DNA of 21,096 nt from a virus: positions 1 through 21,096 of the IMG/VR virus record IMGVR_UViG_3300047480_000945, one strand, 5' to 3'. Below, one piece after another: positions 352-15,163 of the stretch. Below the pieces are notes generated by a model. That model did no database searches, was not told the DNA's origin, and saw only the letters and a program-made list of their open reading frames with translations. Position numbers and translations under genes: made by a program. Every line of letters starts with the position of its first letter. Position 1 is the stretch's first letter.

Positions 352-668
352 ATAAAGTAGTTCGCAATGGCCTTGTAGCAGTGCTTTACAGTCCACGATA
401 CGGTGCTGGATGGTATTCGTGGAACTATGATCGTGGCTTTGACAGTCTTGAACTGGTTTTTGATCCTGGACTAGTTTCTTTGGTAGAACAAGGCGATCAA
501 GAAAAAATTCTAGCGTATGCCACACTTAAATGGCCCGATGCTTATTTGGGAGGTCTTGACGATATACAAATTAGATGGATCCCTCAAGGCACTGCATTTA
601 GAATTGAAGAATACGATGGTTCAGAATCTATTTCATTCATGGATGATATAGATTGGATTAAAGCATAA
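348..668 (+). CDS. Conserved-looking hypothetical protein, 106 aa
   Basis: Not assigned to a function. The product is 106 residues, soluble, aromatic-rich at the N-terminus (GAGWYSWNYDRGFDSL) and acidic at the C-terminus (EEYDGSES, DDIDWIKA). The N-terminal segment is followed by a short helix (SLVEQGDQEKILAYATLKW) and a beta-rich end, suggesting a compact alpha/beta fold. The start overlaps the upstream phosphatase stop by ATGA, and the next gene begins 10 bases downstream, so it sits in an operon. I have an impression of similar small proteins in other phages and bacteria, but cannot name a family with certainty. Confidence 0.7.
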   Translation: MNKVVRNGLVAVLYSPRYGAGWYSWNYDRGFDSLELVFDPGLVSLVEQGDQEKILAYATLKWPDAYLGGLDDIQIRWIPQGTAFRIEEYDGSESISFMDDIDWIKA

Positions 669-677
669 AGACAAAAC

Positions 678-971
678 ATGGGCATTAAATTTCCAGTATC
701 AACACCTACCCCGCTGTATGATTTTACTCTTCGGTATAATAAACTGCATGAAGAACGAATCATCAAGCATCGCAATTGGCAAAACAACTGGCAAGACTTT
801 TACGAACTGAAAATGAAACAAGTTCAGGAAAGTCATAGAATTGCCAAAGCAGAATTGAGACGAGCCGAACTAGATCAAGTACATCAGTATGAAGTCTTAG
901 ACAAAAGACACGCATACGCTAATTACCAGTACATGTTCTATGTGGGCACAAAATTTGATGTTTATATTTAG
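678..971 (+). CDS. Hypothetical protein, 97 aa, helical and charged
   Basis: Unrecognised. The middle (residues about 20-80) is rich in Lys, Glu, Gln, His and Arg with a heptad-like pattern (NNWQDFYELKMKQVQESHRIAKAELRRAELDQ, split here across two helices), so a helical or coiled-coil protein is likely. The C-terminus is aromatic (YANYQYMFYVGTKF). It begins 10 bases after the previous stop, and its TAG stop is part of the Shine-Dalgarno sequence of the next gene, consistent with one transcript. No weight can be put on a function. Confidence 0.6.
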   Translation: MGIKFPVSTPTPLYDFTLRYNKLHEERIIKHRNWQNNWQDFYELKMKQVQESHRIAKAELRRAELDQVHQYEVLDKRHAYANYQYMFYVGTKFDVYI

Positions 972-980
972 GAGGCTACT

Positions 981-1568
981 ATGCCCACAACTTTTGTAAT
1001 TTCAGACACACACTTTGGACATCTTGGTGTATGTAAGTTTATGCGTAATGATGGTGTAACAAAACTTAGACCATGGGATAGTCCTGAAGAAATGGACGAA
1101 GCCATGGTCGAGCGTTGGAATGCTAGAGTGCGCCCCAATGACAAAGTATATCACCTCGGTGATGTAGTCATTAACCGTAAAGCTCTGCACATTCTGCATC
1201 GCTTAAACGGTGACAAAGTACTGATCAAAGGCAACCACGATATTTTCAAACTGTCAGACTATACTGAACATTTTAGAGATATTCGTGCTTACCATGTACT
1301 AAATGGCATGATCTTTAGTCATGTACCTGTGCATGAAGAAAGCCTTGCTCGTTTTGGTTGCAACATTCATGGACACTTACATGCTAACCGTGTTATGACT
1401 GTAAAGCATAAAAATGCTGTACCTGAAATAGATCCTAGGTACTTTTGTGCCTGTGTTGAGCACACTGACTTTGCTCCTATCAGTCTTGAAGAAATTGGGG
1501 ACAGGATTAGAGCACAGGGCGGCCATGTTGGATTTAAAAACGGCAACGGCCCTACCGCAGTAATGTAA
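981..1568 (+). CDS. Calcineurin-like metallophosphoesterase, 195 aa
   Basis: All blocks of the calcineurin-like phosphoesterase family are present in order: DTH with D9 and H11, GD with D61, GNHD with N85 and H86, H114 in FSHVP, and GHLH at 131-134. These residues bind a two-metal centre that hydrolyses phosphomono- or diesters. At 195 residues it matches the short single-domain forms frequent in phages and in bacterial YfcE/MJ0936-like proteins. The start is supported by a strong ribosome site (AGGAGG, 970-975) five bases before ATG. No signal peptide is seen, so it should act in the cytoplasm. Natural substrate unknown; candidates include cyclic nucleotides, nucleic acid ends or dinucleotide polyphosphates. 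The family call is firm, the substrate is not. Confidence 0.9.
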   Translation: MPTTFVISDTHFGHLGVCKFMRNDGVTKLRPWDSPEEMDEAMVERWNARVRPNDKVYHLGDVVINRKALHILHRLNGDKVLIKGNHDIFKLSDYTEHFRDIRAYHVLNGMIFSHVPVHEESLARFGCNIHGHLHANRVMTVKHKNAVPEIDPRYFCACVEHTDFAPISLEEIGDRIRAQGGHVGFKNGNGPTAVM

Positions 1569-1689
1569 ATACACTGAGCAGACCCATTTGACTCGCAAGA
1601 GATGAAATTCTGCTTCCGCGGCGCACGAAACATGGGATGGGCTGTGCGTCCGGGGTTGATAGTTATCCTGTCACCCAGAAAACTATCAA
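1569..1689 (+). ncRNA. Possible structured RNA or 3' leader in a gene-free stretch
   Basis: This stretch of about 120 bases has no convincing ORF but good pairing potential. GCGCAC (1621-1626) pairs with GTGCGT (1644-1649), and TTGATAGTT (1656-1664) pairs perfectly over nine bases with AACTATCAA (1681-1689). CCCAT (1583-1587) can also pair with ATGGG in the first loop (1632-1636), and GGG (1653-1655) with CCC in the second loop (1674-1676). A standard intrinsic terminator follows immediately. It may be a small RNA, the structured 3' end of the upstream transcript, or a 5' regulator of the NAD synthetase gene. No tRNA or known riboswitch consensus was recognised, and no promoter was found in front of it. 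Confidence 0.35.
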
Positions 1690-1716
1690 ATAGAGCCTTC
1701 GGGCTCTATTTTTTTG
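1690..1716 (+). terminator. Intrinsic terminator before the NAD synthetase gene
   Basis: An 8-base-pair stem, ATAGAGCC paired with GGCTCTAT, closes a TTCG tetraloop (1698-1701) and is followed by a run of T to 1715. This is a textbook Rho-independent terminator. It ends the upstream transcript and lies about 43 bases before the nadE-like start, so it could also act as an attenuator for that gene. Confidence 0.85.
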
Positions 1717-1758
1717 ACTAGATTTTAAAAAAGATAATTACTAGTATTCGAGGAAACT

Positions 1759-2727
1759 ATGAGTCTAAAACAACAAATTCTTACCTACAGCCGCCAAGAA
1801 ACCATGCAACCATTAAGTACTTGGTTCGATTCTAAGTTAGAACAACTCATTGACATAGGAATTTATTCTGACTTTAATACTCTTGAAGACACAGGACAAA
1901 AACTAGTTCAAGGACTAAAAGATTACAGCAACAAATATAATATTAATAATGTTGCACTAGGTATGAGTGGCGGTGTAGACAGTGCATTAACAGCAGCATT
2001 ATTTAAAACAGCAGGGTGGACAGTGACAGGTGTTACTATGCCCATTCACCAGAATCCCACAGAAACAGAACGAGGTATTGAAGCTTGTTCTGCACTGGGT
2101 ATTAAACATGTGCATATCGATTTAACAAAACCCTATGATGATTTGGTAAAAAGCATTGAACTATGGGATCATGAAATTAATCATGCAGGGCATGTAATTC
2201 GTAGAGCCAACCTGCGTGTAAGGCTGCGTATGATGACAGTGTACAATGTAGCCAGCAGTCTGCGTGGGCTTGTGGGCAGCACAGATAACTTCAGCGAGCT
2301 AGCCGCAGGTTTTTGGACACTACATGGTGATGTAGGAGACTTGGCACCTATTCAAAGTTTGAGTAAAAGCTGGGAAGTACCCAAGCTGGCAGAAATTTAT
2401 GGAGTACCTAAATCCACAGTGTTTGCCAAACCCACAGACGGTCTAGGTATCAGTGATGGCGATGAAGCACAGTTTGGTTTCAGTTACTTGGAATTTGATA
2501 TTGTGTTGTTAATGTTATGTCTTCACAAAGAAATTAAAACAAGACAACAAGCATTAGAATACTTGTTGCCCGGTACAGCAGACATTGCCAAAGTAAATAG
2601 TATTTTGGATCGTATCGCTGGCAGTACATTTAAAAGAGCTAATCCTTTTAACTTACCACACCCACAAGACCGTGAAAGATATGTGGGCTTACAAAATCTT
2701 GACACTGCACTGTGGAAAAAATTATAA
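1759..2727 (+). CDS. nadE: NH3-dependent NAD+ synthetase-like protein, 322 aa
   Basis: An adenine-nucleotide alpha-hydrolase (PP-loop) enzyme that would amidate deamido-NAD to NAD+ with ATP and ammonia, the last step of NAD synthesis, in the cytoplasm. The PP-loop SGGVDS is at residues 70-75. A second conserved region, VGSTDNFSELAAGFWTLHGD, corresponds to the family's GTxNxSE...GDxxxD segment, followed by LAPIQSLSK and a PTDGL stretch near the C-terminal part. No nitrilase (glutaminase) domain is fused, so free ammonia would be the donor; 322 residues is slightly longer than the usual 270-290. ATG at 1759 is preceded by GAGG (1750-1753). The last bases contain the late promoter of the next unit. 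Phages carrying NAD-supply genes are known; substrate specificity is inferred. Confidence 0.8.
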   Translation: MSLKQQILTYSRQETMQPLSTWFDSKLEQLIDIGIYSDFNTLEDTGQKLVQGLKDYSNKYNINNVALGMSGGVDSALTAALFKTAGWTVTGVTMPIHQNPTETERGIEACSALGIKHVHIDLTKPYDDLVKSIELWDHEINHAGHVIRRANLRVRLRMMTVYNVASSLRGLVGSTDNFSELAAGFWTLHGDVGDLAPIQSLSKSWEVPKLAEIYGVPKSTVFAKPTDGLGISDGDEAQFGFSYLEFDIVLLMLCLHKEIKTRQQALEYLLPGTADIAKVNSILDRIAGSTFKRANPFNLPHPQDRERYVGLQNLDTALWKKL

Positions 2728-2732
2728 TAGTA

Positions 2733-2740
2733 TATAAATA
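2733..2740 (+). promoter_or_regulatory. T4-type late promoter TATAAATA
   Basis: An exact match to the T4 late promoter consensus (single -10-like element read by the gp55 sigma factor). It lies just after the nadE stop. A start about six bases downstream of the element would leave a leader of roughly 20 bases before the ATG at 2766, with an AGGTAG ribosome site (2756-2761) in between. It is the only exact TATAAATA I found between genes, and would place the whole sugar cluster under late expression. Confidence 0.7.
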
Positions 2741-2765
2741 CCATTATAAAACTCCAGGTAGCGAC

Positions 2766-3206
2766 ATGATTTACACTATAAAAGACACACAGGATCCTTA
2801 TGCTGGTTATCTTAAAGATGATCCAGTGCGACCACATATTCCCAATGAGCAGAGATTTGGCAGCAATAGAGCAGTGCTGGCACTGACAGATGATAATCAT
2901 GTTCAAGCAGTGGTCTGTACTAGACTTTGTAGTTTGATTCCTACCAGTGAAGAGGAACTGTTAATGGACAACAGTGCTGACCCTGATACTGCTGTGTTCT
3001 ATACAATATGGAGCTACACACCTGGGGCAGGCCAACAGTTAATAAGAGAAGGCCTGGCCAAACTGCAGCAGGAAAACCCCAACATCAAAAGATTTGTCAC
3101 TCTCAGTCCTCCTACTGAGATGGCAAAACGATTCCATTTAAAAAATGGAGCTCGCATATTCAGAGTTAACGATACAACAGTTAACTATGAATATATAAGT
3201 ATATAA
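2766..3206 (+). CDS. GNAT-fold protein resembling the malonyl-CoA decarboxylase C-terminal domain, 146 aa
   Basis: The product is 146 residues if it starts at ATG 2766. The frame is open further upstream (from 2712), but that would place the start before the predicted late transcription start, and AGGTAG precedes 2766. The central part, AVFYTIWSYTPGAGQQLIRE, then LQQENPNIKRFVTLSPP, follows the pattern of the catalytic domain of malonyl-CoA decarboxylase (FYSIS..., KTFxTLSPxPGF), which has a GNAT acetyltransferase fold. The glycine-rich turn before a helix would be the CoA-binding loop. Whether it decarboxylates malonyl-CoA or acylates something is unknown; the decarboxylase helical domain is absent. 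As first gene of the late unit it might acylate a sugar or protein. The resemblance is from memory, not a search. Confidence 0.55.
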   Translation: MIYTIKDTQDPYAGYLKDDPVRPHIPNEQRFGSNRAVLALTDDNHVQAVVCTRLCSLIPTSEEELLMDNSADPDTAVFYTIWSYTPGAGQQLIREGLAKLQQENPNIKRFVTLSPPTEMAKRFHLKNGARIFRVNDTTVNYEYISI

Positions 3207-3219
3207 ACTAAAAATTAGC

Positions 3220-3987
3220 ATGACAATCAAAAACTATGTGGTCTGCGCTCACCGCAGAATCAAAAGCACCAAATGGGTTTGGAAAGATACTGCCGCAGAA
3301 GGCGATATTTATGAAACTTACAAACAAATGTGTTTGTTAAGTTTGGCCAGCGCACGACACTTTTTAGAAGGTGACTGGGAATATATTTTATTCGACGAAG
3401 AAATTGACAGCATCAATGATGCCATGCCCTTAAACAATGACAGAGTCTATGACCTGTGGCACAGTGAACCTTGCAACATATTGTGGGTTGGTCCTGATGT
3501 TCAATTTGTTAAACCTACAAAAATATTTGGTGAATTCAATGAATTTAGGCTGTTTAATTGGACTGACCCAAAAAGCTGGCATGAAGCTAATCAGTACAAT
3601 GCTGGATTTGACAATTTGTTCAACAATGACTTACAGTATTACCCCAGTACAATGGATGCCAAACTTTGGGAAACCGAACGCAAAATGCGAACTGAATGGG
3701 ACAACAGTGACGGCATGAGCAGTTATAACAATCAACAGATTATCCATAACACTATGTTTTGGAGTCAAGGCCTTGCTTGGTCTGATGCACACCGCCCAGA
3801 GTTATTTTATCAAGCACAATGGTTACCATGGCAAGATTTAACTGTTCAAGACGAGTGGAATCAGTGCAAGTATCAAGATGCACATGTAATTCATTGGCAC
3901 AGCAGTAGACATAGCCCCACTAAGTTGGACTGTATGCAACAAGTAAATGATGCACTAGGTATTCCTGCTGTAACTGAACTTAAATGA
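3220..3987 (+). CDS. Glycosyltransferase-like protein (probable GT-A fold), 255 aa
   Basis: Likely a nucleotide-sugar-dependent transferase. The N-terminus (YVVCAHRRIKS) resembles a GT-A first strand, and CNILWVGPDVQFVKPT (residues 85-100) resembles the metal-binding block of small glycosyltransferases (hydrophobic strand, then DxD-like residues; here only D93 is clearly kept). Near the C-terminus HVIHWHSSRHS recalls the His-containing end block of GT8/GT32-like enzymes. No signal peptide or membrane segment is seen. It starts 14 bases after the previous gene and overlaps the next (ATGA, 3984-3987), inside a run of nucleotide-sugar genes, which supports a role in transferring the sugar made by its neighbours. 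The family is not certain; acceptor unknown. Confidence 0.55.
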   Translation: MTIKNYVVCAHRRIKSTKWVWKDTAAEGDIYETYKQMCLLSLASARHFLEGDWEYILFDEEIDSINDAMPLNNDRVYDLWHSEPCNILWVGPDVQFVKPTKIFGEFNEFRLFNWTDPKSWHEANQYNAGFDNLFNNDLQYYPSTMDAKLWETERKMRTEWDNSDGMSSYNNQQIIHNTMFWSQGLAWSDAHRPELFYQAQWLPWQDLTVQDEWNQCKYQDAHVIHWHSSRHSPTKLDCMQQVNDALGIPAVTELK

Positions 3988-4775
3988 AAATAGCTGTAAT
4001 TGGAAGTAACGGTTTTTTAGGCCGTTATTTGACTAAATTACTGTCACTGAAATATACAGTATTGCCAGTAACAAGACAAACTGTAGACATCAGCAATTAT
4101 GCTGCTGTGCAAGTATGGTTACAAGAACATAAACCTGATGTAGTTGTAAATTGTGCAATCAGTGGAGGCGGCCCAGCTGTAGATGAAATTAACTACAGTC
4201 ATGTTCAACATGATCTCGCAGTATTTTTAAATTTTTACAACAGCAACTATGTAATGAAGTACATTAACATTGGCAGCGGTGCAGAATTTGACCGCCGAAC
4301 TGACATTAACTGTGCCAAAGAAGATGATATAGTTGTTGCCAAGCCCTTAGAAAGTTATAGTTTTGTAAAAAATACCATAGCAAGACTCTGCAGAAATCGT
4401 ATGAATTTTTATACACTGAGATTGTTTGGTTGCTTTGACAGCAGCGAACCAGACTTTAGACTATTGAAAAAATTCAAAGAAGACAGTAAAATTGAAATCC
4501 AAGATAGATATTTTGACTATATCAGTTTACGAGATTTTGCCACAGTGGTTGATTACTATATAAGGGAAGCTGGCCCACAAGACATTAATTGCGTTTACGC
4601 AGATAAATTATTACTCAGTGAGCAACTTAAAAAGTTTGCCAAGTATCATGTACCCGACAGCACTATTTCTTGTAAACTTGAGTTAGGTCGATCTTACACA
4701 GGCAACGGTGATAAACTTCAACAACTGAATTTAAATCTTGCGGGACTCGAAGAAAGTTTAAGATTATATGAATAA
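3984..4775 (+). CDS. NAD(P)-dependent SDR-type nucleotide-sugar reductase or epimerase, 263 aa
   Basis: An extended short-chain dehydrogenase/reductase. The Rossmann motif GSNGFLG is at residues 7-13 (GxxGxxG) and the catalytic YxxxK is YSFVK (Y125, K129). NIGSGAEFD (95-103) occupies the place of the usual Ser/Thr catalytic strand. It resembles RmlD, GDP-fucose synthase and related 4-keto-sugar reductases. At 263 residues it is short for the group. It overlaps the glycosyltransferase-like gene by four bases and the 4,6-dehydratase gene by eight, so all three are co-translated. It would reduce a keto intermediate made by the downstream enzymes, or the side-chain keto group of a branched sugar; which one cannot be read from sequence. 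Confidence 0.8.
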   Translation: MKIAVIGSNGFLGRYLTKLLSLKYTVLPVTRQTVDISNYAAVQVWLQEHKPDVVVNCAISGGGPAVDEINYSHVQHDLAVFLNFYNSNYVMKYINIGSGAEFDRRTDINCAKEDDIVVAKPLESYSFVKNTIARLCRNRMNFYTLRLFGCFDSSEPDFRLLKKFKEDSKIEIQDRYFDYISLRDFATVVDYYIREAGPQDINCVYADKLLLSEQLKKFAKYHVPDSTISCKLELGRSYTGNGDKLQQLNLNLAGLEESLRLYE

Positions 4776-5721
4776 AAAAATTGTTTATGTAACAGGCTGT
4801 CTGGGCTTTATGGGCAGTCATGTTACAGAAGCCTGTTTGGCCAAAGGATGGTATGTGATTGGTGTTGACAACTGCACTTATGCAGCCAATACTGCATGGA
4901 TTGACAGTTGGGATCTGCGGTTCCCTGACCAATTTAATTTCATTAAATCAGATATCAATGACTTAGATAAGCTCTACGACTGCGACTATATTATTAACAT
5001 GGCCGCCGAAACTCATGTAGACAACAGCATCGAAGACAGCGATAGATTTGTACACAGCAATATCAACGGTGTACACAATCTTTTAAAACTTATTAACAAA
5101 AAGAAATATCATAAACCTGTGCTGTTACACTTCAGCACAGATGAAGTCTATGGAGACATTGAGCAGGGCAGTCACAAAGAAACTGACTTATTAAAACCTA
5201 GTAATCCCTACAGTGCTACCAAAGCAGCAGCAGATCATTTGGTAACAAGTTGGGCTAGAACTTATGGATTGTCTTATGTAATTGTTCGCCCTACCAATAA
5301 TTATGGCATTGGCCAGTATGTAGAAAAACTTATTCCTAAAACTGTAAAATATTTAAGTATTGGTCGTAGAGTTGATCTGCACAATAACGGCACACCTGTG
5401 CGTACTTGGTTGTTTGCCGGCGATACTGCCCAAGCTGTTATTACAATAATCGAATCAGGTGTTAAAAACGAAATATTCAACATCAGCGGTAATTATGAAA
5501 CTGCAAATATTACAGTAGTTAAAAAGATAATTGATCGTATGATGCCCAGTCAAACCGTTGATATTACCAACTATATTGAACACATGGTTAGAATTGGACA
5601 GGATGTTCGTTACAGTATCGATGACACAAAACTCAAACAATTGGGATGGCAACCGCAGGCAGACTTTGACAAAGAGCTGGAAAAAATAGTACAATACTAT
5701 CAAGAAAACTTTATTTGGTAA
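4768..5721 (+). CDS. rfbB: Nucleotide-sugar 4,6-dehydratase, RmlB type, 317 aa
   Basis: Converts an NDP-hexose (typically dTDP-glucose) to the 4-keto-6-deoxy sugar using bound NAD+. Visible motifs are GCLGFMG (residues 10-16) for NAD binding, AAETHVDNS (80-88), the TDE triad FSTDEVYGD (122-130) and YSATK (Y148, K152). Length is typical (about 320-360). The TDE motif favours the dTDP-glucose class over CDP-glucose dehydratases, which usually lack it; this matters because the next enzyme's relatives act on CDP sugars. The start ATG overlaps the reductase stop (4768-4775), and the next gene follows after three bases. Together with the next three genes it suggests synthesis of a 3,6-dideoxy sugar. 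Confidence 0.88.
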   Translation: MNKKIVYVTGCLGFMGSHVTEACLAKGWYVIGVDNCTYAANTAWIDSWDLRFPDQFNFIKSDINDLDKLYDCDYIINMAAETHVDNSIEDSDRFVHSNINGVHNLLKLINKKKYHKPVLLHFSTDEVYGDIEQGSHKETDLLKPSNPYSATKAAADHLVTSWARTYGLSYVIVRPTNNYGIGQYVEKLIPKTVKYLSIGRRVDLHNNGTPVRTWLFAGDTAQAVITIIESGVKNEIFNISGNYETANITVVKKIIDRMMPSQTVDITNYIEHMVRIGQDVRYSIDDTKLKQLGWQPQADFDKELEKIVQYYQENFIW

Positions 5722-5724
5722 CAC

Positions 5725-7044
5725 ATGGAACAGATTCTACAACAAGTTAGAGAATACATTAGAAACAAGCAAGAAACAAAAACTTGGCGTGAAGGCCAAG
5801 ACTTTGTTAACTATGCTGGCGCTTACTATGACGAAAGCGAATATGCGGCTGGAGTAGAAAGCTTACTAAAAGGTTGGTTGGCCATGGGCGATGCTGGTCT
5901 TAGATTTGAACGAGAGTTTCCTAACCAATTTGGTAAGACTAAAGGCATTGTGACTAACAGCGGCAGCAGCAGTAACCTGTTGATGATGGCCAGCCTAACC
6001 AGCAAGCGTGGCTATAATTTGCCTAAAGGCACAAAAGTGTTGATGCCTATTGCAGGCTTTCCTACTACACTGAATCCCACACTACAAGTGGGTTTTCAGC
6101 CCATCTTTGTAGATATTGAATTAGACACGCTAAATTTAAATTTAGATCAAGTTGAAGCAGCACTTAAACAACAACCTGACATTCGTGTCATTACTTTTGC
6201 TCATGTACTAGGTAATCCTCCTAACATGAATAGGCTTATGGAGTTAGTAAAACGCTATGATTTGATTCTATTAGAAGACTGCTGTGATGCATTGGGCAGT
6301 ACTTACGACGGTGTGCCTCTTGGATCGTTTGGTCTTATGTCATCATGCAGTTTTTATCCTGCACATCACATGACCATGGGCGAAGGTGGATTTGTAGCTA
6401 CCAATGACGCCGACCATGATGTTATTCTTCGTAGTTTCCGTGAATGGGGTCGTGGCTGTTACTGTGTAGGGCCCGAAGCCAATAAATTGAAATGTGGAAC
6501 TTGCGGCAAGCGTTTTAACAATTGGATTCCAACACTGCCCGACGAAGTATTTGACCACAAATATGTCTACGATGAAATTGGCTATAACTTAAAACCCATT
6601 GAACTACAGTGTGCCATGGGCTTAGAACAGTTAAAGAAGCTGCCCGAGATTCATGCACTGCGCCGTCGTAACTACGCACTGCTGTTTGACATTTACAAGC
6701 CCTACGAAGAATTTTTCCATTTACCCCGAGCACAGGCCAAGTCGGATCCATCATGGTTTGCTTTTCCCTTAACAATAAGGCAGGGCGCACCATTTAGTCG
6801 CAGTGATATAGTAGACTATTTGGAAGAAAACCTTATACAGACTCGTCCGTATTTTGCTGGCAATATTATGTTACAGCCAGCATACAGCCATTTGATGGAT
6901 CCGATGGTAGCTAAAAATAATTTCCCCATGGCCACTCATGCCATGACACACACTTACTTCCACGGAACAAGTCCTGTGATTACACCTGAGCAGATTGCTT
7001 ACATTGGCAAAATAGTTCAAGGTTTTATGAGTTTATATCAGTGA
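5725..7044 (+). CDS. rfbH: RfbH/E1-type NDP-4-keto-6-deoxyhexose 3-dehydrase (PMP and [2Fe-2S]), 439 aa
   Basis: A DegT/DnrJ/EryC1-fold enzyme in which the PLP lysine is replaced by histidine: SFYPAHHMTMGEGG (209-222), with H214 where aminotransferases have Lys. This is the hallmark of CDP-6-deoxy-4-hexulose 3-dehydrase (E1, ascarylose pathway) and ColD. The iron-sulphur cysteines of E1 are also present: C187, then 57 residues, C245, one residue, C247, and a fourth at C257 or C260 before GKRF. The first spacings (X57, X1) match E1 exactly; the last is longer because of a small insertion that adds an extra Cys. ColD lacks the cluster, so this is the E1 type and should need a reductase (E3), which is not in this window. 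It would remove the 3-OH of the product of the upstream dehydratase. Length agrees with RfbH (about 437). Confidence 0.9.
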   Translation: MEQILQQVREYIRNKQETKTWREGQDFVNYAGAYYDESEYAAGVESLLKGWLAMGDAGLRFEREFPNQFGKTKGIVTNSGSSSNLLMMASLTSKRGYNLPKGTKVLMPIAGFPTTLNPTLQVGFQPIFVDIELDTLNLNLDQVEAALKQQPDIRVITFAHVLGNPPNMNRLMELVKRYDLILLEDCCDALGSTYDGVPLGSFGLMSSCSFYPAHHMTMGEGGFVATNDADHDVILRSFREWGRGCYCVGPEANKLKCGTCGKRFNNWIPTLPDEVFDHKYVYDEIGYNLKPIELQCAMGLEQLKKLPEIHALRRRNYALLFDIYKPYEEFFHLPRAQAKSDPSWFAFPLTIRQGAPFSRSDIVDYLEENLIQTRPYFAGNIMLQPAYSHLMDPMVAKNNFPMATHAMTHTYFHGTSPVITPEQIAYIGKIVQGFMSLYQ

Positions 7045-7051
7045 GAAACCT

Positions 7052-8062
7052 ATGAGAGTATGTGATTGGATTCCTCAGTATCTTAAGTCAATTGGTGTAA
7101 AACGAGTGCATGGTCTAATGGGCGGCGGCGCTGCAGGTCTTAATGATGGATTTATCAAAGCAGGCATGCCCTATATCTGTTATCATCATGAGCAAGGTGC
7201 CGGACATGCTGCTATTGGTGAAAGCAAGTATACAGGACAGTTATCAGTAGTTAATCCTACCACTGGTTGTGCTGGTACTAACTGCGCTACCAGTGTGCTA
7301 AATGCTTGGCAGGACAGTACCCCTGTGCTGTTTATCAGCGGTAATGTTAGGTTAAACACTTGCAGCGGCTGGATTAATTTTAAAAATCCCGGAATAAACA
7401 TTCGCAAATACGGTATTCAAGAACACCATGTAGTTGAGACTTATCAGTCAATGACCAAATACAGTAGATTTATTACCAGTGTAGACGATGTTGCTTATCA
7501 TATCAGTTATGCGGTACACTGTGCTACAACTGGAAGGCCCGGGCCTGTATGGATCGACATTCCTGGTGATATTCAATTAGCAGAAATGCCTGAACAGTAT
7601 AATTTATATGTGCCTCCCACAGATCACTATTTGCCGACGAAATTAGATAAAATTAAATCAAAGATCCATCACAGTGAAAGGCCCTTAATTCTAGCAGGTT
7701 ATGGTATTAGGCAAAGCAACACTGTTGAACAATTCAATAGATTTATCGAGCAGTATGAAATTCCTTTTGCCAGTACTTATGGTGGCCGCGACTATACTGC
7801 TGGCAATCATCACTACAGTCTCGGTACTGTGGGACAAAAAGGCAGTAGAGCAGGGAACTTTGCTGTACAAAATTGTGATTTATTATTGGTCTTGGGCAGC
7901 AGTTTAAATGCCAGTGTTGTGGGCTATGATCCTAAACAGTTTAGTCCGCATAGTTATAAAATTGGAGTAGATATTGATAATGGTGAACTTAACAAAGATA
8001 TTGTTCAATTGAATGAAAAAATTAACATGAGTTTACAAGACTTTTTTAAGGTAATGCTATGA
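7052..8062 (+). CDS. ThDP-dependent enzyme, N-terminal (PYR) and central domains, acetolactate-synthase type, 336 aa
   Basis: First part of a split thiamine-diphosphate enzyme. The PYR-domain glutamate that activates ThDP is E47 in YHHEQGAGHAAIGE, followed by the family pattern VVNPTTGCAGTNCATSVLNA and VLFISGN. The middle (about 195-336) is the nucleotide-binding-like central domain (RPLILAGYGIR, DLLLVLGSSLNASVVGYDP). The usual C-terminal ThDP-pyrophosphate domain is missing but is encoded by the next gene, with a four-base overlap. In this sugar context the nearest functional analogy is YerE, which adds an acetyl unit from pyruvate to a 3,6-dideoxy-4-keto sugar. Plain acetolactate synthase, or another carboligase, is the alternative. 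Family certain, substrate inferred. Confidence 0.85.
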   Translation: MRVCDWIPQYLKSIGVKRVHGLMGGGAAGLNDGFIKAGMPYICYHHEQGAGHAAIGESKYTGQLSVVNPTTGCAGTNCATSVLNAWQDSTPVLFISGNVRLNTCSGWINFKNPGINIRKYGIQEHHVVETYQSMTKYSRFITSVDDVAYHISYAVHCATTGRPGPVWIDIPGDIQLAEMPEQYNLYVPPTDHYLPTKLDKIKSKIHHSERPLILAGYGIRQSNTVEQFNRFIEQYEIPFASTYGGRDYTAGNHHYSLGTVGQKGSRAGNFAVQNCDLLLVLGSSLNASVVGYDPKQFSPHSYKIGVDIDNGELNKDIVQLNEKINMSLQDFFKVML

Positions 8063-8811
8063 CAAGATCAGAATGGTTAGCTAAATGCCTGCACTGGAAA
8101 CAAAAATGGCCTGTTATTCAGCCCGAACATGCAGCAGACAACACCACAGGTGCTGTTAACATTTATGCAGTATTGGATTGGATCAACAAGCACAGCAGAC
8201 CCGAACAAGTGCTTATGGGAGATGCTGGCAGTATCAGCTATGCAGGGCCAACTGCTTTAGAAACAAAACCGGGACAGAGAATGGTGTTTAGTCCTGCACA
8301 AGCAGACATGGGGTGGGCAGTGCCTGCAGCTATTGGTGTTTGTCTCGCCAATGGTAATCAAAGTGTAATTACCATAACCGGTGACGGCAGTTTTATGAGT
8401 AACATACAAGAACTAGCAGTTATAAAAGAACACAATCTAAATGTTAAAATTGTTATTTTAAACAACGGCGGCTATCTCAGCATTAAAAACACACAGGAAA
8501 AATACTTTGAAGGTCGTGTCTATGGCACCAGCAGTAAAAAAGGTCTTTGGTTTCCAGACTTTGCAGAAGTTGCTGAATGTTTTAAATTTGAATACTTTAA
8601 GATTACCAGTCAGCGGGATATGGATAGATACGCAGAAGTTTTAAAATATGGCGGCAACAGTCCTCAGATATTTGACTGTGTATGTTTAGAAAATCAAGAA
8701 ATTCTACCAGCACAGGCACTAAAAAATGGTCAGCAAGCTGGCCTGCACGACATGACTCCTTTTCTCAGCGACGAAGAACTAGCCGAAGAAATGATTGTCA
8801 GCATTAAATAG
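8059..8811 (+). CDS. ThDP-dependent enzyme, C-terminal (PP) domain, second subunit of the split enzyme, 250 aa
   Basis: This carries the ThDP-binding motif GDGS (108-111, D109 for the metal) followed 24 residues later by NN (135-136), the standard GDG-X-NN signature, after the family segment MGWAVPAAIG (84-93). Together with the upstream 336 residues it makes about 586 residues, the normal length of a one-chain acetolactate-synthase-like enzyme, so the two products probably assemble. The ATGA overlap (8059-8062) favours equal synthesis. The first 30 residues look like an added N-terminal extension (KCLHWKQKWPV) rather than a relic of a frameshift, and the start is clean. This suggests a genuine two-gene arrangement, not a sequencing error, though a fusion broken by one mutation cannot be excluded. 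Confidence 0.85.
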   Translation: MTRSEWLAKCLHWKQKWPVIQPEHAADNTTGAVNIYAVLDWINKHSRPEQVLMGDAGSISYAGPTALETKPGQRMVFSPAQADMGWAVPAAIGVCLANGNQSVITITGDGSFMSNIQELAVIKEHNLNVKIVILNNGGYLSIKNTQEKYFEGRVYGTSSKKGLWFPDFAEVAECFKFEYFKITSQRDMDRYAEVLKYGGNSPQIFDCVCLENQEILPAQALKNGQQAGLHDMTPFLSDEELAEEMIVSIK

Positions 8812-8815
8812 CTGC

Positions 8816-9184
8816 ATGAGCTGGCATGATTTTGTAAGAGCAAGTTATGACTTGGTAATGGAAAGTGAGGGTCTCAGTGACACTTACTTAGACACAGAAG
8901 TAGAAACTTATGTTGTTCATTTGTTAGCTAAAAACTTTGTTAAATTAAACATTGACGAAGAAGCCATTGCCATACAGATTCTTAATGGCACTGACTTTCA
9001 ACACATAGGCGATGAGTGCTTATTAATAAACAGTTATCCTTTAAAACGGCGTCGCTGGCCTACCAGCACTTACTATAGAGACATGGGTACAGTTGCCTAT
9101 GGTATGGCTAACATAACTATAATGGAATCAAACTTTGATGATGCCAGTCGTGTACTACATCATGTGTTTAGCCGAATAAGTTGA
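8816..9184 (+). CDS. Hypothetical protein, 122 aa, end of the sugar operon
   Basis: Unrecognised. The start chosen is ATG 8816, four bases after the upstream stop, giving MSWHDFVRASYDL; a TTG at 8795 would extend it by seven residues into the upstream gene. No good ribosome site precedes it, so reinitiation from the ThDP gene is likely. The N-terminal half is acidic and helical (YLDTEVETYVVHLLAKNF, IDEEAIAIQIL). A basic patch KRRRWPTSTYY lies near residue 81. The last gene of the late unit; role unknown. After it comes a host-type promoter for the next unit. Confidence 0.65.
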   Translation: MSWHDFVRASYDLVMESEGLSDTYLDTEVETYVVHLLAKNFVKLNIDEEAIAIQILNGTDFQHIGDECLLINSYPLKRRRWPTSTYYRDMGTVAYGMANITIMESNFDDASRVLHHVFSRIS

Positions 9185-12919: not shown

Positions 12920-12945
12920 AATGTACAATATAATAAGGATTGACT

Positions 12946-14274
12946 GTGATTGATATAACTGGTGTCGCAGTATCCACAATACTAGGCACATTATCAGGTA
13001 TCACTGTTGGTTTGTTGCCAGGGTTAGGCGTAAGCACTGCTACACTGTTATTGGCTCCTTTATTGGTACAATTCAACCCAATATATGGTTTGATATTTTT
13101 TGTGGCATTATTGGTAACTAGCCAGTATACAGGCACAATTACAGCATTAATTTATGGGGTGCCCGGAGAACTCAGTAGTTATCCAGTGATTAACGAGCGC
13201 AAACACTTGCTTGACAAGGCCTCTGATGTTTTGCAACAATCTGCGTTAGGCAGTTTCGTTGGTGCTACTGTGGCCATGACTGTATTTGTGTTCTTGATGT
13301 ATTTGGCAGATCTTTGGATAAAACTTTATAATTATAAAGTTTTTGGTTGGGTAATTCTTTTGACGGTGATATCGGTCATAATGTTTGGTAGCCAAACCAA
13401 CAAGGTCTTGACCAATTTGGTTTTGTTTACATGCGGATATTTTTTGTCCAAAATTGGTTATAACGCAAATTTAGCGGTCGAATGGGGCACTTTTGGTTTT
13501 ACCAGTCTACTCAACGGCGTTCCATTAATGGCATTAGCATTTGGGCTAGTAGTGATCCCTAACATCAGCATTGGTGCTCGGTACCCAGTAATCTCTCAAG
13601 CAGTTGATGATTTAACACGATCTTATACACGATGGGCCGCTATTATTAGAGGTTCTATTTTGGGAATAGTTGGGGGATTGGTCCCGGGTGTAACATACAT
13701 GGTCAGTACCCAGATGAGTTATGTGACTGAACAGCGGTTGAGTAGAACTGACGCAGTGTGCCGGGTGGTGGCCCCCAGTACAGCAGACAATGCTGGGGCA
13801 GTCAGCAGTCTCTACACATTATTTTGGTTGGGAATTCCCATTACTCTAGGCGAAGCTGTGGTTGTTTGGTTGTTTGACAAAAGCAATCAGCCGCTGACTT
13901 GGAGTTCATTGAATCAACACATGCTTACGCCATTGGGTAACTTGACTTATTTTGAAATCATATTGTGTGCATTTTTTACGGCCAATTTAGCAGCATACTT
14001 ATTGACAGGACCATACAGAACTTTGTCAAAAAAACTTGCTCGTCATTTATTGACACCATTTGCCGGTTATGTTATACTGACCATTGCGATCTGCAGCTTA
14101 TATTTTGCTGCTGCCGAATCTAGAAGCCAACTGATATTTTTAATTACTTTGATAATTTCGTCGGCAGTAAGTCTTGTTCTAAGACGAATAGATTGGATGC
14201 CATTGATAATTGGATTTATTTTACAAGATATCATCGAGGGTATTTTGTATAAATTGAACATTCTCATTTTTTAA
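12946..14274 (+). CDS. tctA: TctA-family permease (tripartite tricarboxylate transporter large membrane subunit), 442 aa
   Basis: A polytopic inner-membrane protein with about ten or more hydrophobic helices. Both family hallmarks are present as an internal pseudo-repeat: GTLSGITVGLLPGLG near the N-terminus with TALIYGVPGE after it, and GIVGGLVPGV about residue 240, followed by VAPSTADNAGAVSS and WLGIPITLGEAVV. These match TctA's repeated G-x-LPG and AAxxAANNA...TLGIPG blocks. TctA normally works with the small membrane protein TctB and periplasmic TctC to import carboxylates with a cation gradient. 442 residues is shorter than the usual 490-510. The start chosen is GTG 12946, seven bases after AAGG; TTG 12940 is too close to it. 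A transporter in a phage genome is unusual. Substrate unknown. Confidence 0.85.
   Translation: MIDITGVAVSTILGTLSGITVGLLPGLGVSTATLLLAPLLVQFNPIYGLIFFVALLVTSQYTGTITALIYGVPGELSSYPVINERKHLLDKASDVLQQSALGSFVGATVAMTVFVFLMYLADLWIKLYNYKVFGWVILLTVISVIMFGSQTNKVLTNLVLFTCGYFLSKIGYNANLAVEWGTFGFTSLLNGVPLMALAFGLVVIPNISIGARYPVISQAVDDLTRSYTRWAAIIRGSILGIVGGLVPGVTYMVSTQMSYVTEQRLSRTDAVCRVVAPSTADNAGAVSSLYTLFWLGIPITLGEAVVVWLFDKSNQPLTWSSLNQHMLTPLGNLTYFEIILCAFFTANLAAYLLTGPYRTLSKKLARHLLTPFAGYVILTIAICSLYFAAAESRSQLIFLITLIISSAVSLVLRRIDWMPLIIGFILQDIIEGILYKLNILIF
13320..13343. repeat. 24-base perfect palindrome inside the permease gene
   Basis: Half-site AAAACTTTATAA, followed by its exact complement, with no loop. It encodes the residues KLYNYKVF in a loop between membrane helices. 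It may be a cruciform, RNA hairpin or protein-binding site, or simply chance in AT-rich coding sequence. Confidence 0.6.
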
Positions 14275-14284
14275 AAGGAAAATT

Positions 14285-15163
14285 ATGAAAAATACTATTA
14301 AAATAACTAAATTTTTAGCAGCAATATGCTTGTCAACGGCTGCGTTCAGTGCTGCAGCCAGTGATTACTTAATGGTTATTAATACTGGAAATCCAACTGG
14401 TGCTACAAGAATCGTCGCTGATCAGTATGCTACCGAATATCGCAAGCATTACAAATCAGTTGAAGCATTGACCCCGGGTGGATGTTTGCCTGTGATTGCT
14501 GGTATTAAAGAAAATAAAGGTCCCACTGTAGTAATATGGGATAATTCAGTATTGTTTAACGATACCTGTAAGTCAGAATTTACTAAACAAAAACAAATAG
14601 CAACATTTGGTGGTTACTACTATCTCTGTACAGCCAAAGAAAACAATCTTACTGTTCAAGATTTTGCAGAAGGTCGTGGGCGAGTAGCTTTGCTACCTCC
14701 TTTTCCTTTCTGGGATAAATGGTTTAAAGATATGGGCACACATCTTGGTGTGCAATATCTCACTATGCCAGTGGGTGACAGTGGCAAAGTTATCCTTAGT
14801 TTGTTGAGCAAAGAAACCGATTGGGCATTAGTAAATAGTCAGCGGGCTCTAGTTCAAATCAAAGAAAATAAGTTAAAGTGCGTAGCATCGCTTAATCCAG
14901 CTGGCGAAAATGGGTATCCATATCTTGGTAAGTATAACAAGAACTTTCCCAACAGCTCAATGTTGTTAGGCACGAATGTATATGTAACAAATGCATCAGC
15001 GACAGAAAAGAAAAAAATAGAAGATATATTGTTGAATTTTCACCGTACCAGCGAGTTCCAAAACTTTATATTAAGGAGTGTATTAACTGATTATACACTG
15101 GCTGATCCTGTGTCCAAAGACAAATTTTATGAAACTATGATCAAATCGAGTTCAGTGAAATAA
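14285..15163 (+). CDS. tctC: TctC/Bug-like periplasmic solute-binding protein, 292 aa
   Basis: The N-terminus is a clear Sec signal peptide: basic MKNTIKITK, hydrophobic FLAAICLSTAAFSA, cleavage probably after A25 (AAA/S). The mature part resembles TctC/Bug binding proteins: an N-terminal strand with NTGNPTGATRIVADQYA where Bug proteins have the phosphate-free ligand loop PxGxxD, then VALLPPFPFWDKWF, and GDSGKVILSLLSKETDWALVNS in place of the usual GxxxAxxALLGGxVD block. The match is distant; five cysteines (one in the signal peptide) are unusual. The gene follows tctA by ten bases with AAAGGAAA before ATG, so the pair is an operon. It would capture a substrate for the permease. A general periplasmic-binding-protein fold is the fallback call. 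Confidence 0.65.
   Translation: MKNTIKITKFLAAICLSTAAFSAAASDYLMVINTGNPTGATRIVADQYATEYRKHYKSVEALTPGGCLPVIAGIKENKGPTVVIWDNSVLFNDTCKSEFTKQKQIATFGGYYYLCTAKENNLTVQDFAEGRGRVALLPPFPFWDKWFKDMGTHLGVQYLTMPVGDSGKVILSLLSKETDWALVNSQRALVQIKENKLKCVASLNPAGENGYPYLGKYNKNFPNSSMLLGTNVYVTNASATEKKKIEDILLNFHRTSEFQNFILRSVLTDYTLADPVSKDKFYETMIKSSSVK

Follow-up and report, generated by a model that had tools for sequence, protein, structure and literature searches.

Six genes that may together build a carbon-branched sugar lie at positions 3,220–8,811 of a viral stretch of 21,096 nucleotides (IMG/VR record IMGVR_UViG_3300047480_000945), which at its full length we call the window. Their open reading frames (ORFs; table 1) are separated by overlaps of 4–8 bases or gaps of 3–7 bases. 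A preliminary description of this DNA had called them adjacent and overlapping: all six are where it placed them, but the ORF of the E1-type enzyme has no overlap. The ratio of non-synonymous to synonymous substitution (dN/dS) among relatives of the cassette is 0.04–0.15 where computable, many dS values being saturated, which indicates purifying selection; since, in addition, the gene set is found again in dozens of phages, the six-gene observation is far beyond chance. What might a phage make with such a set?

Table 1. The six-gene cassette of the window: predicted products, positions, strand, length and basis of assignment.
Predicted product	Position	Strand	Length	Basis
GT-A-fold glycosyltransferase-like protein	3220–3987	+	255 aa	AlphaFold model, Foldseek
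Short-chain dehydrogenase/reductase (SDR), nucleoside diphosphate (NDP)-sugar ketoreductase type	3984–4775	+	263 aa	PF01370/PF04321
RmlB-class 4,6-dehydratase (deoxythymidine diphosphate (dTDP)-glucose type)	4768–5721	+	317 aa	TIGR01181, below cut-off
E1/RfbH-type pyridoxamine phosphate (PMP)-dependent 3-dehydrase	5725–7044	+	439 aa	NF011936, above cut-off
Thiamine diphosphate (ThDP) enzyme, first subunit, Pyr + central domain, YerE-like	7052–8062	+	336 aa	PF02776 + PF00205
ThDP enzyme, second subunit, PP domain	8059–8811	+	250 aa	PF02775, GDG...NN ThDP/Mg motif

The fourth protein matches the DegT/E1 family (E 2e-70), and at 443.8 bits it passes the cut-off of 423 of NF011936, the NCBIfam RfbH equivalog. 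Its best solved relative is the E1 of Yersinia (3bcx, E 1.5e-96). H214 corresponds to the catalytic His220 of E1, which replaces the lysine of the aminotransferases, while C187, C245, C247 and C260 correspond to the iron–sulfur cysteines C193, C251, C253 and C261. All 85 of the 85 phage E1 sequences compared retain the histidine and the four cysteines, which bears out the E1-type assignment, with its histidine and full set of cysteines, that had been made from the window.

The ThDP enzyme is indeed in two parts, the N-terminal and central domains being encoded by one ORF and the PP domain by the next. The catalytic Glu47 of the first subunit is invariant, as are G108-D109-G110 and N135-N136 of the second in 29 split sequences. 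The solved structures nearest to both halves by sequence are 8rph and 5ahk, the latter of which we take to be PpYerE. The former is JanthE, for it carries the CDG motif stated for that enzyme (PMC12247030). In the ThDP proteins of three other loci (L089, L093 and L116) the binding motif reads GEG instead of the canonical GDG, which may be compared with the CDG of JanthE. One further E1-bearing phage contig (L107) contains two different ThDP genes, at 916–2745 and 4666–6480.

Is this enzyme an acetolactate synthase? Its N-terminal part scores 176.5 bits against TIGR00118 (cut-off 538) and 187 against NF006524 (cut-off 738); a single-chain relative (L037), at 276.6 and 277.9 bits, is likewise under the acetolactate synthase cut-offs. 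On both of two trees the phage ThDP proteins stand apart, on starred branches, from IlvB, IlvG and IlvI of Salmonella, with supports of 98/89 and 100/99 for the separation on the more careful one, and on both they fall into several separate clades. The first tree joins the phage proteins to JanthE (89% support) and PpYerE to the Ilv proteins, JanthE and PpYerE both being long-branched. The ‘phage’ records that match acetolactate synthases are mostly short or bacterial contigs (Salmonella, for example), and three of them served as reference sequences only. A place within the acetolactate synthases of amino-acid metabolism, which the preliminary description had held would tell against its proposal, was thus found neither by score nor on either tree. 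The nearest bacterial relatives are about 35% identical; they came from a scan with a wider alignment, the alignment of the split type having found none in a narrow scan of bacterial genomes.

How is the enzyme divided? In the window the start of the second subunit overlaps the stop of the first (ATGA). Since AAGG lies a few bases before this second start, and an in-frame TAA just upstream of it, two separate proteins are predicted to be made. A programmed −1 frameshift joining the halves was considered and rejected, for the T6A tract is out of register and the TAA lies upstream of the second ATG. Close viral relatives are split at the same point, after the central domain and before the PP domain, and there too stop and start overlap; this holds at more than 40 loci. 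The exceptions are five single-chain enzymes, L037–L041, which are 62–63% identical overall. On the more careful tree one of them lies inside the split group (97/90), and this nesting suggests re-fusion, or more than one fission, of the gene. All 80 of the 80 bacterial relatives are single-chain.

To which nucleotide would the sugar be linked? The dehydratase matches the RmlB class (E 2e-58), as had been described. It scores 295.3 bits against TIGR01181 (RmlB); because the cut-off of 365.1 is not reached, we use only the label ‘RmlB-class’. Against TIGR02622, the model of the cytidine diphosphate (CDP)-glucose 4,6-dehydratase RfbG, it scores 76.8 bits (cut-off 278.5), and its best solved relative, 2hun, is a hypothetical dTDP-glucose 4,6-dehydratase. 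The preliminary description had remarked on the discrepancy of a dTDP-class dehydratase beside enzymes that use CDP sugars. This discrepancy is real and general: an RmlB-class dehydratase is present in 113 fetched phage loci, and among the fetched phage loci there is no RfbG-class dehydratase above 120 bits and no cassette RfbF, the single 45-bit match lying outside a cassette. The window's own record being a 21 kb fragment, the nucleotidyltransferase RmlA and the reductase E3, whose absence from the window had been pointed out, were sought in relatives. The gap persists there, the cassettes of phage relatives likewise having neither RfbF nor E3. The E3-type domains Fer2 and NAD_binding_1 were found in none of 22 larger phage records, and flavodoxin in none of 18, some of these records possibly being fragments; PF00483 gave only weak matches (21–30 bits) in 4 of the 22, which we do not take as RmlA. 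The nucleotide is probably dTDP. Since the cassettes contain no RfbF, RfbG or E3, and since SpnQ of spinosyn biosynthesis sets a precedent (see below), it is likely that the host supplies dTDP-glucose and electrons and the phage the enzymes for the remaining steps.

The two remaining proteins would act at the end of the pathway. The product of the first gene has no match in Pfam, NCBIfam or PHROG, though its AlphaFold model (predicted local distance difference test, pLDDT, 89.6) has a GT-A fold, which supports its earlier reading as glycosyltransferase-like. The best Foldseek matches are glycogenin and blood-group transferases, and VIA-align gives Z 14.5 to the catalytic domain of UGGT and 13.9 to glycogenin. 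D93 and G91 are invariant in 27 sequences, and of 90 phage loci with distinct E1 genes, 49 have a homologue near E1. We propose that this protein transfers the sugar. The second protein, an SDR as described, matches the Epimerase and RmlD families; its model (pLDDT 93.5) is nearest to GDP-4-keto-6-deoxymannose epimerase/reductase, MlghC and RmlD, and Tyr125 of its Y-x3-K motif is invariant. Among 35 phage loci picked by E1 and having full flanks, with ThDP scored within 6 kb, the SDR is present in 21 of the 23 that have a ThDP gene versus 5 of the 12 that do not (Fisher p 0.003). We propose that it reduces the branch carbonyl.

Do these genes keep company elsewhere? Within 5 kb of 63 distinct phage E1 genes there is an RmlB-class gene in 55 cases, an SDR gene in 43 and a ThDP gene in 34. 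Conversely, 45 of 80 bacterial ThDP loci have E1 nearby, with RfbF (glucose-1-phosphate cytidylyltransferase) in 36 and RfbG in 35. The phage loci were selected by E1 alone and the bacterial loci by ThDP alone, and nothing speaks more strongly for the pathway than this two-way association of E1 with ThDP. In a Chromobacterium locus (L189), for example, family models identify a cytidylyltransferase, a CDP-glucose dehydratase and RfbH, with the ThDP gene downstream.

We conclude that the cassette probably encodes a phage pathway to a yersiniose-like sugar, an NDP-linked 3,6-dideoxyhexose that bears a carbon branch at C4. To this reading we assign a probability of roughly 0.7. As a pathway class it is the best-supported reading, well supported by sequence and gene context, and to that extent the yersiniose-type chemistry proposed in the preliminary description stands; the donor acid, the exact product, the acceptor and the nucleotide we infer. 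The RmlB-class enzyme would oxidize and dehydrate host dTDP-glucose to the 4-keto-6-deoxy sugar, from which the E1-type PMP/[2Fe-2S] enzyme would remove O-3, drawing electrons from a ferredoxin or flavodoxin reductase of the host. The two-subunit YerE-like enzyme would then decarboxylate an α-keto acid, most simply pyruvate, and join the resulting acyl unit to the ketone at C4 to give a tertiary alcohol. Finally, the SDR would reduce the branch carbonyl and the GT-A enzyme would transfer the sugar to its acceptor, most likely a glycan of the host surface or a protein of the virion.

Several observations weigh against this conclusion. The long branches leave the placement of JanthE and PpYerE unsure, and the first tree puts PpYerE with the Ilv proteins. 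ErwE shows that YerE-like enzymes may refuse pyruvate (PMC12247030). The dehydratase scores under the cut-off of the RmlB equivalog, which leaves its nucleotide uncertain, and no E3 was found, the window being a 21 kb fragment and the host being able to supply a reductase. The fold neighbours of the SDR are C4-ketoreductases, which would also suit a plain 3,6-dideoxyhexose, and an SDR occurs in 5 of the 12 full-flank loci that lack ThDP.

What else, then, might the genes encode? The pathway might be the same and the branch something other than a two-carbon hydroxyethyl group, the donor being a longer or hydroxylated keto acid and the product erwiniose- or caryophyllose-like. There is precedent in ErwE and MMAR_2332, which take such acids (PMC12247030). 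A class I aminotransferase able to make a keto acid, and which may supply the donor, accompanies the split ThDP genes in 24 of 29 phage loci; a 50% identical relative of it (L162, 6778–7932) lies directly upstream of the ThDP gene of a Candidatus Pacearchaeota contig, and in a sister phage the branch module is of a NeuB/AroB-like type (see below). None of these extra genes is in the window, however, and the SDR alone suits the reduction of a simple acetyl branch. We consider such a branch rather unlikely, though it is the most serious of the alternatives. Appreciably less probable is an unbranched 3,6-dideoxyhexose of the paratose or abequose type, the ThDP enzyme belonging elsewhere, for instance as a stand-alone acetolactate synthase carried as an auxiliary metabolic gene. 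The resemblance of the SDR model to NDP-sugar C4 reductases would suit such a product, as would the finding that, of the 35 phage E1 loci with full flanks, 12 have no ThDP gene within 6 kb, an SDR being present in 5 of these. Set against these are the ThDP scores, far under both acetolactate synthase cut-offs, the position of the protein outside the Ilv clade and the presence of its bacterial relatives beside E1.

That the E1-like protein is instead an aminotransferase, with a 4-amino-4,6-dideoxy sugar as its product, is very improbable. The fold family is the same, and SpnQ can transaminate when no reductase is present (PMC8987622), but the RfbH model far outscores the aminotransferase models, and the invariance of the histidine and the four cysteines argues strongly against an ordinary aminotransferase role. 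We dismiss a recent frameshift leaving a dead ThDP enzyme, to which the single-chain state of some close relatives (L037–L041) might point, since the identical split recurs with its stop/start overlap at the more than 40 loci, the motif residues are invariant in the 29 split sequences and dN/dS is 0.06–0.15 in both halves where computable from unsaturated dS, many dS values being saturated.

Is the branch itself a fixed part of the pathway? The sister phage L054 is 96% identical to the window in UvsW, 96% in E1 and 89% in RmlB. At 664–9047, however, it replaces the split ThDP genes and their neighbours with a different branch module: a NeuB-like protein, a single-chain ThDP enzyme (34% identical), a FabG-like SDR, an AroB-related protein (TIGR04425), an FkbM methyltransferase, a second methyltransferase and a 38% identical SDR. 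A further ORF of L054, with no family match, we take by eye to be an FGGY-type kinase. Since L054, near-identical in E1 and UvsW, has this NeuB/AroB-like module instead, related phages appear to exchange the branch part of the pathway. NeuB-like and AroB-like genes occur also in bacterial ThDP loci. A wider proposal, to which we give slightly less than even odds, is that T4-like and jumbo phages share a dTDP-based pathway to C4-branched dideoxysugars, with a phage-split ThDP enzyme, in which RmlB and E1 are kept and branch modules of pyruvate, aminotransferase-linked or NeuB/AroB type are exchanged. If so, infected cells or virions would carry phage-dictated, lineage-specific sugars.

The window, itself a fragment, probably derives from a large T4-like phage. 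Its UvsW is nearest to those of the jumbo phages PA5oct and Phosso (51–53%). Four large cassette-bearing records contain a T4-type gp23 and terminase; neither was found in the other cassette-bearing records, which may be fragments. Two genes are kept beside the cassette in sister phages, one of the NAD synthase family (1759–2727) and one for a small protein with a partial match to the malonyl-CoA decarboxylase C-terminal model (2712–3206). Beyond the cassette lie a gene for a TctA-family tricarboxylate transporter (12940–14274; PF01970, 159 bits) and an ORF with a signal-peptide-like start that is TctC-like to the eye only (14285–15163). Among 50,697 phage records this pair gave only three weak matches, viral contigs yielded no relative, and the secreted ORF had no match among solved structures. 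In a 193 kb viral contig (L020, 13967–15404) ORFs that by eye are AhpD-like and AhpC-like stand beside the cassette.

Sugar clusters of phages are already known; the new element is a carbon-branched sugar with a YerE-like enzyme, neither of which is described for a phage in the literature searched, most subscription papers lying outside it. If the proposal is right, phages build rare surface sugars with an exchangeable branch, which would offer a handle on the purpose of such clusters: superinfection exclusion, virion shielding or receptor change. A divided ThDP carboligase, and a broad, multi-clade pool of YerE-like phage enzymes, would be of interest for the synthesis of chiral tertiary alcohols.

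How does the cassette compare with known systems? Cyanophages and jumbo phages such as P-SSM2 have lipopolysaccharide-type clusters of NDP-sugar epimerase/dehydratases and glycosyltransferases, for which a change of the host glycan has been proposed; a search of the review (PMC7824862) for thiamine and acetolactate found no mention. In cyanophage RN05-S an E1 relative (40%) is present, but no gene within 6 kb of it is annotated as a ThDP enzyme. SpnQ is an E1-type PMP/[2Fe-2S] 3-dehydratase that acts on a dTDP sugar with general ferredoxin/flavodoxin reductases (PMC8987622), as we propose for the phage E1. Unlike what is proposed for the phage enzyme, however, SpnQ takes a 2,6-dideoxy sugar as its substrate, and its pathway continues without branching by a ThDP enzyme. 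The pathway to yersiniose A in Yersinia pseudotuberculosis, in which the YerE reaction is known, uses the same classes of enzyme: a 4,6-dehydratase, E1, a YerE-like ThDP carboligase and an SDR (PMC12247030). It proceeds through CDP sugars, whereas in the phage an RmlB-class dehydratase replaces the CDP-glucose dehydratase, there is no cytidylyltransferase, no E3 was found in relatives and the ThDP enzyme is split in two. JanthE and PpYerE, YerE-like enzymes that accept ketones, are the closest solved enzymes, yet they are single-chain and distant from the phage halves, and JanthE has CDG where the phage second subunit has GDG. AviB1/AviB2 and Pau11/Pau12 are of the 2-oxoacid dehydrogenase E1 α/β type, unlike the phage pair, which appears to be a divided YerE-like decarboxylase. 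In avilamycin and paulomycin biosynthesis, respectively, they are the proposed two-protein enzymes that use pyruvate to attach an acetyl branch at C4 (PMC4753412), and the phage pair resembles them in consisting of two proteins for which branching at C4 is proposed.

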